A stretch of DNA of 32,145 nucleotides, from contig MFMT01000042.1 in assembly GCA_001783565.1 (NCBI GenBank), positions 29,408 to 61,552 of the forward strand, written 5' to 3'. Origin of the DNA: Candidatus Kaiserbacteria bacterium RIFOXYD1_FULL_42_15. Lineage in GTDB: Bacteria > Patescibacteriota > Minisyncoccia > Phycocordibacterales > UBA918. Below, one piece after another: positions 8,467 through 32,106 of this stretch (positions are counted from its first letter, which is position 1; every line of letters starts with the position of its first letter). Both the position numbers and the translations under genes were made by a program. The notes under the pieces are model-generated. The model was not told where the DNA came from. It did not search any database and saw nothing but the letters and a program-made list of their open reading frames with translations.

Positions 8467-8847
8467 ATGGAAATAAAACCCATTACTTTTGATAGACATG
8501 ACCGAGCGGCTTCTTTAATTAAAGAAATAGTAGCCACCTTCATTCAACAAGAGGCAAATCCCAATCCTCTTATTACCGTAACTCACGTTACTGTTTCTCC
8601 AGATTATCGAAAAGTGACAGTGTTTTTTACCACCATCCCTGACGGTCGCGAAGAAGATGCTTTAATTTTCCTCAAGCGCAGTGCTAATGAGATGCGCGGA
8701 TTTGTGAAGAAAAAAAGTAGTTTAAGAATTATTCCCCACTTGGAATTCTCAATAGACTACGGCGAACGACATCGCCAACACATCGATGAGATTGCCCACG
8801 AGATTGAGCACAGTGATGCCGACACCCCTACAGAACCAACCACCTAG
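8467..8847 (+). CDS. rbfA: Ribosome-binding factor A
   Basis: Position after infB; 'ITVTHVTVSPDYRKVTVFFT...RIIPHLEFSIDYGERHRQHIDEI'. Confidence 0.85.
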   Translation: MEIKPITFDRHDRAASLIKEIVATFIQQEANPNPLITVTHVTVSPDYRKVTVFFTTIPDGREEDALIFLKRSANEMRGFVKKKSSLRIIPHLEFSIDYGERHRQHIDEIAHEIEHSDADTPTEPTT

Positions 8848-8873
8848 GACATCCGATGTCCTAGGTGGTTGGT
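8835..8873. terminator. Near-perfect palindrome overlapping rbfA stop codon
   Basis: accaaccacctaggacat ccg atgtcctaggtggttggt, 18-bp stem; no strong T tract. Confidence 0.6.
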
Positions 8874-9329: not shown

Positions 9330-9674
9330 CAATGTAATAGTACGTCAGATTTTTATCTGGCGTACTATTACATTTGCCCCAGGGACTTGAAGAGGTTGCC
9401 TGCTAGATTATGAGCTAGCGAAATAATCTAGCGACAACCTGTACTGAACTCGTAGAGTTCAAGTCCCGCTCCCGGCACAAATTAAAAACTATCATTCTTG
9501 AGAGTTTTTAATTTGTGCCGGGAAGAAAGCAAACTGCTTTGCTTTCGGGCGGGACTTGAAAGGCGGAGCGACGTGAGTTTACGAACAAGCGAGCCAGGGT
9601 CGTGAGCGATATATTTTTAAGGAGTTCACGACTATAAAAATAATCGACTCCTGACCAAGTCCCGCTCCCGGCAC
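9330..9674 (+). repeat. Two tRNA-Leu(TAA) 3'-tail units
   Basis: Direct copies of tRNA 3' end at 9457-9478 and 9657-9674; inverted copies at about 9374-9391 and 9515-9560. Confidence 0.85.
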
Positions 9675-9751
9675 AAAGTATTATTAAGAATATATAGATA
9701 GGTTGTCTAATTTAAATTTATCTTGTACACTTTGCTCTACCAAATATATAT

Positions 9752-9824: not shown

Positions 9825-10030
9825 CAAAGGTAAAGCAAAAACACTATCATAATATGATAGTGTTTTTGTTTTAAAAACTGAACTGCTTCAGTTTTGTGCC
9901 TGTGTGCGAGACGGAGCGATGTTTTTCTGCCCCCTTAGGCAGGAAAATAAGTGAGTCGGGGTAGCGAGTGCTTAGTAAAATAAAGACAAAGTATTTATTT
10001 TGGTTAGCAACTCGTGACCACACAGATACA
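9825..10030 (+). repeat. Structured element 3' of tRNA-Lys, type-2 core, no tRNA-tail copy
   Basis: Terminator hairpin then 'CTGTGTG..GACGGAGCGATG-hairpin-GTGAGTCGGGGT...CTCGTGACC..CACACAG'. Confidence 0.6.
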
Positions 10031-10189: not shown

Positions 10190-10340
10190 CAAAAGAAAAA
10201 CCGTCCCGCAAGGGCGGTTTTTTGACTGCGCGAGAAGTAGTGTGTGGGACACACTACGGGAGGACTTGAAGAGGTTGCCAGCTCTTTTGAAAAAAGAGCG
10301 ACAACCTGTACTGAACTCGTAGAGTTCAAGTCCTCTCTCC
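10190..10340 (+). repeat. tRNA-Leu(TAG) 3'-tail unit
   Basis: Terminator hairpin; tgcgcgagaag + hairpin TAGTGTGT/ACACACTA + gaggacttgaa (inverted tail); core; direct tail gttcaagtcctctctc. Confidence 0.82.
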
Positions 10341-10350
10341 ACATTTCCTA

Positions 10351-10848: not shown

Positions 10849-11035
10849 ACGTCTTTGCGAGTGAGAAAGTCCAGTGGACTTTCGCAAGACCTTGCCAGCT
10901 CTTTTGTAAAAAGAGCGACAAGGTGTACAGTCCCTGTTAAGGGAAAGCGCGGCAATCCACGTCCATCATCGTGTTCGTCTTCGCGAGTCGCAACGTGGCG
11001 ATCCACTTCTTCACCTAAACCACAGCCGAGCGAAA
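10849..11035. repeat. Mosaic intergenic repeat with type-1 structured insert
   Basis: gtctttgcgag...gagaaagtccagtggactttcgcaagaccttgcc...gacaaggtgtacagtccctgttaaggg...gcggcaatccacg. Confidence 0.75.
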
Positions 11036-13383: not shown

Positions 13384-13782
13384 CTACTGTGGTCCAGATA
13401 CAGGTGTGGTATATGTTGGGGCGGTAGCCGGAAGTTCAAAAACTCGGTTATTACAACCAGAAGCTGTTGGGTCTTTAGCACAATCTAGGGTGTCCTTCAA
13501 ACCAAAGGTGTTAGCGGCCACGGATAAAATGGCAAAAGCAGTTAGCATCACCAGTAAGCCGATAATGCCCCACATAATATGTTTTTGACCATCGGCACGC
13601 CCAGTCGGATCATTTGAATTAGCAATGTATTGAAAACTGCCGTACATAAAAACTAGTACCGCTACCGCCGTCAGAAGGATGATTAAGGGATAAAGAATAA
13701 CTTCATTGAATTTGGCGACAAAGCTGGTAGCTTCGGTAACACCTGGTACTGACTCAACGGCATAAGCAATATTTGAAAACAT
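13384..13782 (-). CDS. Small membrane protein, TrbC/VirB2 pilin-like
   Basis: Two TM helices with 'FMYGSFQYIANSNDPTGRADGQKHIMWGIIGLLVMLTAFAIL' pattern. Confidence 0.65.
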   Translation of the reverse strand: MFSNIAYAVESVPGVTEATSFVAKFNEVILYPLIILLTAVAVLVFMYGSFQYIANSNDPTGRADGQKHIMWGIIGLLVMLTAFAILSVAANTFGLKDTLDCAKDPTASGCNNRVFELPATAPTYTTPVSGPQ

Positions 13783-13804
13783 ATGGCTAAATTATAGCAT
13801 CACA

Positions 13805-13842
13805 ACAATCAAAAAACCGCACTGAAGGTGCGGGTTTTTGTC
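13805..13842. terminator. Rho-independent terminator-like hairpin
   Basis: aaaaaaccgcactgaaggtgcgggtttttg. Confidence 0.6.
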
Positions 13843-13873
13843 GGTAAAGTATTACCACTATCATCTAAGCAAA

Positions 13874-14257
13874 TTATGGAGTAGGTAAACCGGGTATAGT
13901 TGGTACAGTCGTTTGATCACCACCGATTGAGCCGGTAAGAAAGTTAACGATTCCCCATAAACTAAAAATCAATGCAAAACCGATAATCGAATAGATAATT
14001 AAGTTTCTACCTTCTTTTCTTTTCTCAGGGTCGTCACCGCCAACAATAAACATTTTGAAAATACCCCAAACAAACATCAGAAATCCTGCTGCCAGTAGTA
14101 GGGGCAATAAATAGTTTTTAATGAAAGTAGTGGTTCCAGAAAATGGAGCACCTAACAAGGTAGGATTATTTTCCAAAAGCCCAGCTGCACTAACGGTGGA
14201 TGCACCTGCAATCAATAAAAACATGGCTGAAAAAATAAAGAAATAGACGTTTTTCAT
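13874..14257 (-). CDS. Small membrane protein, TrbC/VirB2 pilin-like
   Basis: Signal peptide plus two TMs; 'GGDDPEKRKEGRNLIIYSIIGFALIFSLWGIVNFL'. Confidence 0.65.
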   Translation of the reverse strand: MKNVYFFIFSAMFLLIAGASTVSAAGLLENNPTLLGAPFSGTTTFIKNYLLPLLLAAGFLMFVWGIFKMFIVGGDDPEKRKEGRNLIIYSIIGFALIFSLWGIVNFLTGSIGGDQTTVPTIPGLPTP

Positions 14258-14381
14258 AAAATTAAATTGTTAATACTATTAATGAGTATTAATGGTAATT
14301 ATACATGATAATTTGGGGATTGTATGCTTTCTGGGGTGGGGTGTGTATAAAAAAGCTGGTTACAGAAATGAGTCCTGTGAA

Positions 14382-14645
14382 GACGTGGATTGCTTCGCGC
14401 GACTCGCAAAGACGTTTCACTTTGTGTTCGTCTTCGCGAGGAGTGGAGTGGCAACGTGAAAAAGTGATTCAATATCACTTTGCAAGACTAGTTGAGCAGG
14501 TTTGTGAGTGAAACGAAACAAACTGGCCAACTAGTGGACAGTCCCTGTAAGGGAATGACGTGGCGATCCAGGGTGGCATGACGAACGATGTGGATTGCCA
14601 CGTTGCGACTCGCCTGTCTGCGCAGGCAGACAAAGACGGAGGGGT
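14382..14645. repeat. Mosaic intergenic repeat carrying a 99-bp type-1 insert (14457-14555)
   Basis: Near-identical to 17268-17428 apart from the insert. Confidence 0.88.
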
Positions 14646-14657
14646 TGAGACGGTGGG

Positions 14658-14924
14658 TTAAAAAATTGATGCCTTAAGAAAAGAAAGGATGCCCCAAATG
14701 CTGGCCATGATTACCATCACGATGACTGAAGTCAGTGCTATCATCTTACCCTCTTCGCGCTTGGTATCATTATCGGCATGGATAATCCAGGCATCAATAA
14801 TTTTCCACATCATCACAATGAAGGCCAGGGCAAAGATAACCACTATCAGGGAGTTGATGATGTCAACGAAAAAGACGACAAGCTCGGCGAAGGTGGTGGG
14901 CGTGACTGGTGTGGTTGGTGTCAT
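14658..14924 (-). CDS. Small membrane protein, VirB2-like
   Basis: Two TMs; 'ADNDTKREEGKMIALTSVIVMVIMASIWGIL'. Confidence 0.6.
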   Translation of the reverse strand: MTPTTPVTPTTFAELVVFFVDIINSLIVVIFALAFIVMMWKIIDAWIIHADNDTKREEGKMIALTSVIVMVIMASIWGILSFLKASIF

Positions 14925-14926
14925 AA

Positions 14927-15316
14927 CTAGAAACTTTCAACAGTTGATTGAATAATGTCACTAATGGCAACGGCGGCCAAAATCAAAACCCCACCAATAA
15001 TGGCATAAGTGAGGGCACGAGTCGCCTCCCCGACTTTGGTAGAATTACCACGAGCGGTGACGTATTTGAAACCAGCTAAAATAATAAAGAAGACGACGAC
15101 GGGTATCATCAGAATTTCCACGATATTGAGAATGGTCACCAAAAGACCTTCGATAGAACTGACATTTTTAAGAGGGTTTTCTAGGGTAACGGTGTCAATT
15201 TTACTTGTATTCGTCGGAGCAGCTTTGGTAAAAATTGGTAAAAGAAAAAGTAAACCAAGGATTAAATACAAACCGGCATTTTTTCTTATTTTCATTACTT
15301 GACAGTATTTTTTCAT
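14927..15316 (-). CDS. Small membrane protein, VirB2-like
   Basis: Signal peptide, 'AGFKYVTARGNSTKVGEATRALTYAIIGGVLILAAVAISDII'. Confidence 0.65.
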   Translation of the reverse strand: MKKYCQVMKIRKNAGLYLILGLLFLLPIFTKAAPTNTSKIDTVTLENPLKNVSSIEGLLVTILNIVEILMIPVVVFFIILAGFKYVTARGNSTKVGEATRALTYAIIGGVLILAAVAISDIIQSTVESF

Positions 15317-25823: not shown

Positions 25824-26605
25824 GGATTGCCTGCCTGCACATGTATAACACCTAACGAGCCAGCAGGTGGGCTTCATGACGACTTGCAAAAACGGTAGTC
25901 TTCGTCATTGCGAGAAGGGTGACCGCAGTCTAATGACGTGGCAAATCCATGACCGTACAGAAACGTGGATTGCTTCGTTGTGACTCGCAAAGACGGGTAC
26001 GAAGAACGACACCCCACCATCGTCTTTGCGAGGAATGAGCTGGCAAGCAAATGACGTGGCAATCCACACCATCACCGTCTTTGAGGAGGGAGCTGGCAAG
26101 CGTGAAAAAGTGACTCAATGTTGTGTAAAATAATAAGCGTAGCGACTATATTTTTCATACATAGAATTTTTTATCCTTAATAAAAATTCTTGCACTTTGC
26201 AGCCAACTTGAGCTGGTTTGTACCCACCTTTAGCTGCGAGCAAAGCGTGGCAGGAAATAAAATAGCCAATGAGTGGACAGTCCCTGTTAAGGTGAGAAAT
26301 GTCTGGGTGAGAAAGTCCAGTGGACTTTCTCAAGAGGTTGCCTACTATTTTGCAAAAATAGCGTCAACCTGAACAGCTTCTGTATAGAAGACATTTCGCA
26401 GCCACATTGAGCTAGTTTTACCCACCTTTAGCTGCGAGCGAAGCGTGGCAGGAAATAAAGTAGCCAATGAGTGGACAGTCCCTGTTAAGGTGAGAAAAGC
26501 ATGGGATGCTTTTCGCAAGACTCATTGAGGGATTTTGTGAGTGCAACTAAACAAAATACCCAATGAGTGGACAGTCCCTGTAAGGGAGCAACGTGGTGAT
26601 CCAGG
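25824..26605. repeat. Large compound block of nested/tandem mosaic repeats and type-1 elements
   Basis: At least three GCAATCC-type repeats followed by several type-1 cores ending 'GGACAGTCCCTGTtAAGG'; near-duplicate blocks about 26200-26293 and 26399-26492. Confidence 0.8.
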
Positions 26606-31864: not shown

Positions 31865-31951
31865 GGAAGAGTCGCATAGTGGTCTAGTGCACCGGTTTCG
31901 AAAACCGGCATCGGGGAAACTCGATCGAGGGTTCAAATCCCTCCTCTTCCG
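31865..31951 (+). tRNA. tRNA-Ser (CGA)
   Basis: ggaagag/ctcttcc acceptor, loop ttcgaaa, long variable arm, G73. Confidence 0.93.
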
Positions 31952-32106
31952 CAGTGAATGAAATGAACGAAGGAAGAGGAGGTTGCAGCATTTTGAAAAA
32001 ATGCGTAGCAAGATTTGAAGCCCGATTGAGCTAGATTATGAGCTTGCGAAATAATCTAGCCAATTGGGGTACTGAACATGTAATGTTCAAATCCCTCCTC
32101 TTCCGC
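31952..32106 (+). repeat. tRNA-Ser 3'-tail unit
   Basis: Inverted tail ggaagaggagg + hairpin + gatttgaa, core nearly identical to tRNA-Tyr unit 1, direct tail gttcaaatccctcctcttccgc at 32085-32106. Confidence 0.85.

Follow-up and report, generated by a model that had tools for sequence, protein, structure and literature searches.

In one order of Patescibacteria, the only one in which the family has so far been found, intact tRNA genes of many isotypes are followed by short units that combine a core of conserved structure with two copies of the 3' tail of the tRNA gene they adjoin. The order of parts is constant: the intact tRNA with its own tail (A), one or more hairpins, an inverted tail copy (I), the core, and a direct tail copy (B). 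The boundaries are fixed, and the tail is that of the resident tRNA. The units are widely present within the order, their occupancy is specific to each species, and their cores and tails have separate histories. We tentatively favour the reading that they are a non-autonomous, REP-like family of nested hairpins that forms zig-zag units at tRNA 3' ends, with tail copies templated at insertion by the resident tRNA.

The genome analysed (G000) belongs to the ultra-small Patescibacteria and comprises 757 kb in 43 contigs, with 37 tRNA genes. Judged by thioredoxin reductase, its closest named relatives belong to the Patescibacteria, with several Candidatus Kaiserbacteria among them, at about 70% identity. 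The window is the whole stretch of 32,145 nucleotides to which the coordinates below refer, and it agrees exactly with C42:29408–61552 of the joined contig; features lie on the forward strand unless stated otherwise. Core scores are those of covariance model R1, given with the matching positions in loci L010 and L011.

Anatomy of the units

The gene for tRNA-Ser(cga), called by ARAGORN and by Rfam RF00005, is intact at 31865–31952, tail A being its 3' part (31932–31952), and its unit lies directly behind it (31953–32106). A short spacer or loop, lacking a strong terminator in this unit, leads from tail A to the inverted copy (31953–31971; sequence and fold), which comes in two parts. The first (31972–31982; sequence and fold) is the complement of the 3' strands of the acceptor and T stems, and in foldings it pairs either with tail A or with tail B; the second (32012–32019; sequence) reads gatttgaa, its last base being the complement of T54. 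Between them, near the boundary of T stem and T loop, folding places a small bulged hairpin (31983–32011). The preliminary description had missed this inverted copy between tRNA and core, split by another hairpin. The core itself, which we call alpha, occupies 32014–32091 (84.3 bits, E = 3.1e-16, together with covariation) and holds a hairpin (32021–32068), the tetranucleotide GTAC (32069–32072) and a small hairpin with a GTA loop (32074–32088). The direct copy B closes the unit at 32086–32106 and is identical at 20/20 positions over TTC...CCG.

At the other end of the window, the called tRNA-Tyr(gta) gene is likewise intact (87–171, tail A 151–171) and carries an array of three units. The first (172–352) begins directly behind the tRNA with a terminator-like hairpin and T run (172–218; sequence and fold). 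Its inverted copy (219–264; sequence and fold) is split at the junction of acceptor and T stem by a small hairpin (229–251) into an acceptor part (219–228) and a T-arm part (254–264). The alpha core (259–337; 84.1 bits, L010 9666–9744) and direct copy B1 (332–352) follow. B1 has one difference from tail A (cccgacgc versus cccggcgc), and there the inverted copy agrees with tail A. The second unit (353–532), read from the sequence and its own-tail copies, consists of a hairpin, the inverted tail agcgccgggaaggatttgaa, a core of a second type, beta, and the tail copy caaatccttcccgacgcac. The third (533–828; sequence) has a hairpin, an inverted tail, a beta-like core with an alpha core nested in it (682–758; 74.2 bits, L010 10089–10165), and a tail copy at about 808–828. 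Two small overlapping ORFs lie directly 3' of this last Tyr tail copy (865–1348): the first has a sub-threshold match to the Phd/YefM antitoxin, and the second, with no Pfam match, is placed as a toxin partner typically is.

Two further tRNA genes in the window carry units. Behind tRNA-Leu(taa), a hairpin, an inverted tail, an alpha core (9386–9463; 85.6 bits, L010 18793–18870) and a 20/20 tail copy make up a unit at 9331–9475, and a second unit with a beta core and tail copy follows at 9476–9676 (sequence). The tRNA-Leu(tag) unit (10191–10345) has a hairpin, an inverted tail, an alpha core (10265–10330; 73.6 bits, L010 19672–19737) and a truncated tail copy. Beta cores consist of two hairpins around GGAGCGATG...GAGTCGGGGTCGAGAGTACTTAGTA...TACTTAGTAACTCGTGACC; they occur at 353–532, 9476–9676 and 9826–10030 of the window and at several tRNA loci. 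They too are often bounded by tRNA tails, and an alpha core is sometimes nested inside them.

We compared 49 tRNA-linked alpha copies, again at tRNAs of many isotypes. In most, the last ~20 bases of the tRNA gene are repeated twice, once inverted and once direct. An inverted copy with a score of at least 7 lies between tRNA and core in 45/49, and a direct copy with a score of at least 12 lies behind the core in 35/49, the remaining 14/49 scoring below 12. T54 of the T loop and the tRNA 3' end serve as fixed turning points. The inverted copy ends on the complement of T54 in 45/49; the start of the direct copy falls between -2 and +3 of T54 in 36/39, and its end lies 0 to +3 from that annotated for the tRNA in 28/39. 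Since B is truncated or absent in several units, it is either not essential or decays. A small hairpin usually splits the inverted copy, by eye often at the acceptor/T-stem junction (Tyr, Leu-caa unit 2, Cys, Phe, Ala), and in other units near the T-stem/T-loop boundary (Ser-cga, His, Lys-ttt, Arg-tct, Ser-gct). In DNA folding, I pairs with A when A is included and with B when the unit is folded alone; the predicted foldings A:I and I:B are mutually exclusive. At positions where A and B differ, reading by eye showed I to agree with A in Tyr, Ser-gct and Lys-ttt.

The link to tRNA genes is far above expectation. Between 18 (nearest tRNA) and 19 (any tRNA) of the 76 alpha copies in the genome fall in the 700 nt that follow a tRNA gene, on its strand, where chance predicts about 1 for 37 tRNA genes in 757 kb. 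The gene's own 3' tail is copied downstream in 17/37 tRNA genes and upstream in 0/37. Only 7/1332 wrong combinations of tail and gene score as high, and six of these seven reflect the next tRNA gene; the copying of tails is therefore not a product of chance. Among relatives, 32/51 cores follow a detected tRNA at a distance of up to 450 nt, again with many isotypes represented, in 40 loci that were fetched around high-scoring matches and so do not form a random sample.

The alpha core family and a possible role as functional RNA

The alpha core is ~77 nt long and consists of a bulged hairpin, TAC.G, and a small hairpin with a GTA loop. In a BLAST search of its own genome the Ser core found itself (100%), the Tyr unit (93%), the Leu-caa unit (90%; at C42:24137, just beyond the window) and seven weaker matches. 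The preliminary description had proposed a common core for the Ser and Tyr units: both sequences that it quoted are present exactly as given, about 31.76 kb apart, and the G-C to A-T exchange that it reported does sit on opposing sides of one stem in the folds. It had also named an excess of compensatory over one-sided changes as its own test, and that excess is large. Across 26 aligned cores, 20 of the 21 pairs show double changes, with 160 pair cells changed on both sides and 9 on one side only; 97.4% of pair cells are paired against 63% after shuffling, and the covariation score is 0.81 against 0.20 when shuffled and at most 0.19 when slid. The contrasts in pairing and covariation with the shuffled alignment argue that the core pairing is not due to chance. 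TAC.G after the stem and the GTA loop of the second hairpin are the unpaired invariants, in part through selection, because the motif by which the 26 cores were chosen contained the TAC and GTA letters.

Such a pattern invites the explanation that the units are functional RNAs or terminators behind tRNA genes, acting in transcription stop or tRNA 3' maturation, spread by recombination and kept by selection. We consider this unlikely, though it deserves the most serious hearing among the rivals. The strong conservation of structure speaks for it, as do the terminator-like hairpins with which many units begin and the alternative folds A:I and I:B, which resemble an attenuator. On the tRNA-sense strand there are more G-T pairs than A-C mismatches (20:5 and 69:23, counted over related copies that are not independent), which also favours this explanation and suggests that the tRNA-sense strand is the folding strand. 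Yet only about half of the tRNAs have units, and the set that carries them differs from species to species. Many copies lie far from tRNAs, and among tandem genes they favour neither orientation (14 versus 12). The terminator-like hairpin, moreover, often precedes the core, which would then be little transcribed. No Rfam family supports the RNA reading: against Rfam 15 only tRNAs reach the gathering threshold, and weak miRNA/sRNA matches stay far below it. Nor do compensatory changes alone prove selection on RNA, since one-step template switching, an established type of mutation that makes hairpins, reverse-complement copies and multi-base compensatory changes, can yield them (PMC8794818).

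Model R1 finds the 76 alpha copies of this genome at E below 1e-4, among them variants in which GAAC or GGAC replaces GTAC, and 57 of the 76 are not linked to a tRNA. Many of these lie in palindromes like those of CGTC REPs, in which no 20-base target copies were seen. Within the window, the core at 10881–10948 (64.9 bits, L011 288–355) is nested in such a palindrome; other cores without a tRNA lie at 14479–14558 (60.2 bits, L011 3886–3965) and, as two neighbours spanning 26327–26591, at 26327–26393 and 26512–26591 (41.6 and 62.0 bits, L011 15734–15800 and 15919–15998). On the reverse strand at 13384–15316 we noted four successive small ORFs of 88–132 aa, membrane-protein-like and alike in layout. 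Alpha copies were present in 50/59 genomes searched from the genus and order. In an even sample of the phylum they were found in 6/287 genomes, all of the same order, under strict filters that may miss distant weak copies.

Separate histories of core and tail, and candidate movers

Cores and tails can be told apart by their relationships. Tyr and Leu-caa combine different tails with cores that are identical over the stretch compared; the three units of the Tyr array differ in hairpins and cores and share a matching tail. Every unit of an array matches the one tRNA, and from this we infer that the tail copies were made at insertion. Inheritance by descent at each tRNA was rejected: across genomes, similarity is no higher among cores at the same tRNA (0.623) than among cores at different tRNAs (0.647). 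The preliminary description held that one mobile core had acquired two different tRNA tails. A single core family with different tails is indeed what we found, but "acquired" is inadequate and understates the case, because the tails track the host tRNA. The term "mobile" agrees with the distribution of the cores, from which mobility itself is deduced. Alternatively, cores could shift between pre-existing tail frames by gene conversion.

Two related genomes, G018 and G019, offer a closer comparison. Their orthologous tRNA-Glu unit has kept tail A, and its small and GTA-loop hairpins are altered on both arms (GATCCTGTAAGGATC versus GATCATGTAATGATC). The adjacent tRNA-Ser(cga) gene is identical in the two, with a unit in G018 only; the downstream flanks in G018 and G019 do not align, and no clean pair of filled and empty insertion sites was found.

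No gene lies inside the units, and among RAYT/Y1 transposases, reverse transcriptases, TnpB and dedicated integrases none tracks alpha. A RAYT/REP system was rejected on gene flanks and co-occurrence. This reading, in which the units are REPs or BIMEs moved as single-stranded hairpins by Y1 transposases (RAYT, IS200-like) and the tails are a side effect, strikes us as improbable. The bulged stem beside a short conserved tag does resemble REPs, the opposite strand of the core reads CTGTAC followed by a hairpin, and the genome has five Y1_Tnp genes. However, the palindromes bordering the four RAYT-like genes (C7:6098, C41:39741, C23:31192 and C11:7804) are other sequences than alpha, no alpha copy in G000 lies within 1 kb of a Y1 gene, and Y1 genes are absent from many alpha-bearing genomes, including G002 (13 copies), G014 (15), G044 (17; 100% complete), G018, G019 and others. 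The tag is not GTAG and varies (GTAC, GAAC, GGAC), and alpha shows no strand bias against GC skew (27/57). The RAYT-like genes have flanking palindromes of their own, for example CCTAGGACATCGGATGTCCTAGG and CTTAGGGGTTAAACCCCTAAG; the palindrome CCTAGGACAT also occurs at about 8845–8870 of the window.

Less probable still is that the tails are attachment sites, with a tyrosine recombinase integrating small circles at the tRNA T loop, A and B as attL and attR, and an integron-like single-strand fold of I with B. The identity of A and B from T loop to 3' end behind an intact upstream tRNA is what such integrations leave, and tandem arrays exist, as at Tyr here and in locus L185 (G048:C3). There the whole unit behind tRNA-Leu(gag) is tandemly duplicated in near-identical copies joined at the tail copy, which is what recombination between tails would give. 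Against this, the units are gene-less, and only one Phage_integrase-type protein, presumably the chromosomal Xer, is present here and in most relatives, with no extra tyrosine recombinase. An island-type attachment site would also leave the inverted copy, and the association of one core with many tails, unexplained. As to integron attC sites, a look by eye at the core ends picked out no evident GTTRRRY boxes.

Spread of the core by reverse transcription or RNA-guided, TnpB-like copying, with the tail read as primer or guide, is very improbable: a structured RNA with a 20-nt target-matching stretch is superficially like TnpB guide RNAs, and the zig-zag path may recall the strand switching of reverse transcriptases, but this genome has neither a reverse transcriptase (17/59 genomes have one) nor a TnpB-type domain (2/59), and the inverted copies do not include the complement of CCA that a tRNA primer site should have. 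On their distributions, reverse transcriptase, TnpB and a dedicated integrase were each rejected as movers. A retrovirus-like tRNA primer-binding site was rejected as well, as the inverted copy matches the genomic flank and not CCA.

Proposed fold-back synthesis and relation to known systems

For the templating of tails by the resident tRNA, which we favour, fold-back (template-switching) DNA synthesis would be the simplest route. Insertion would take place at the 3' end of the tRNA, which would stay intact. After sense A, a hairpin close to that end would turn synthesis back, giving antisense I as far as T54; a second turn, at the core placed at T54, would then lead forward through sense B to the tRNA 3' end. 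The core may be the part recognised by a putative factor. Several results weigh against this reading: no clean pair of filled and empty sites and no mobilising gene turned up, B is truncated or missing in several units, and 57 of the 76 copies in this genome stand apart from tRNA genes. Template-switch mutations (PMC8794818) have in common with the units the reverse-complement copies and one-step compensatory changes, as in I and the hairpin arms. Alpha units differ in having fixed switch points, T54 and the end of the tRNA, which fall together with a conserved repeat.

Whether this amounts to a new class of mobile repeat is a bolder claim, which we regard as possible but doubtful: a gene-less hairpin that copies the tail of its target tRNA in inverted and direct form, with ends adapting to each tRNA, switch points set at T54 and at the 3' end of the tRNA, and recognition of the alpha hairpin by a dedicated putative host factor. 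In the open-access literature, which is no proof for the literature at large, we found no mobile element with inverted and direct copies of a resident tRNA tail, and tRNA-linked palindromes are not described there for Patescibacteria/Parcubacteria. If the favoured reading holds, a repeat family is spreading in some of the smallest bacterial genomes with no identifiable transposase, its ends templated by the site of entry. The units would then preserve in nature the traces of fold-back DNA synthesis at fixed points, would bear on how transposase-less REPs spread, and would caution against taking compensatory changes in bacterial hairpins as a sure sign of functional RNA. For annotation, they account for the fragments of tRNA tails and the spurious ORFs that follow tRNA genes in these Patescibacteria.

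Elements that integrate into tRNA genes use the T loop as attachment site and leave a block of identity from T loop to 3' end, a restored tRNA and, at times, tandem occupancy. The units share with them the direct repeat of the tRNA 3' part (A/B, T54 to 3' end) and the intact tRNA, but they have no integrase gene and no cargo, measure a few hundred bp at most, and add the inverted tail copy. The hairpin repeats of sponge and fungal mitochondria include double and triple hairpins in small genomes, with an uncertain mode of mobility; in contrast to alpha units, the passages searched in that account describe no tail copies of neighbouring tRNAs (PMC2800124).

Among bacterial repeats, GTAG REPs and REPINs with a RAYT (TnpA-REP) are tagged, in some cases bulged hairpins between genes, thought to move as single-stranded DNA (PMC3116915, PMC8266576). 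Alpha is likewise a tagged, partly bulged, dispersed intergenic hairpin, but it has no GTAG 5' of its hairpin, where the opposite strand reads CTGTAC, CTGTTC or CTGTCC, and no link to Y1 genes by position or occurrence. We know of no REP with copies of a target tail.

CGTC-tagged REPs, as set out in PMC3733652, are small palindromes with no associated transposase, and REP dimers are reported inside longer palindromes; the passages searched there mention tRNA solely for tRNA synthetase and pseudouridine synthase genes. Alpha resembles them as a small transposase-less palindrome, many of whose non-tRNA copies are nested in CGTC-type palindromes here. It differs in being longer, in its own bulged stem and second, GTA-loop hairpin, and in the tRNA-tail bounds behind tRNAs. 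Judged by the marks of CGTC REPs (CGTC tag, 8–9 bp stem, CCA tail, no transposase), the alpha core falls outside that class, as it has no such tag. The CGTC..TTGCGAG palindromes themselves number about 137–153 copies genome-wide and have other hairpins nested in their loops; the nesting of hairpins within hairpin loops looks general in this genome.
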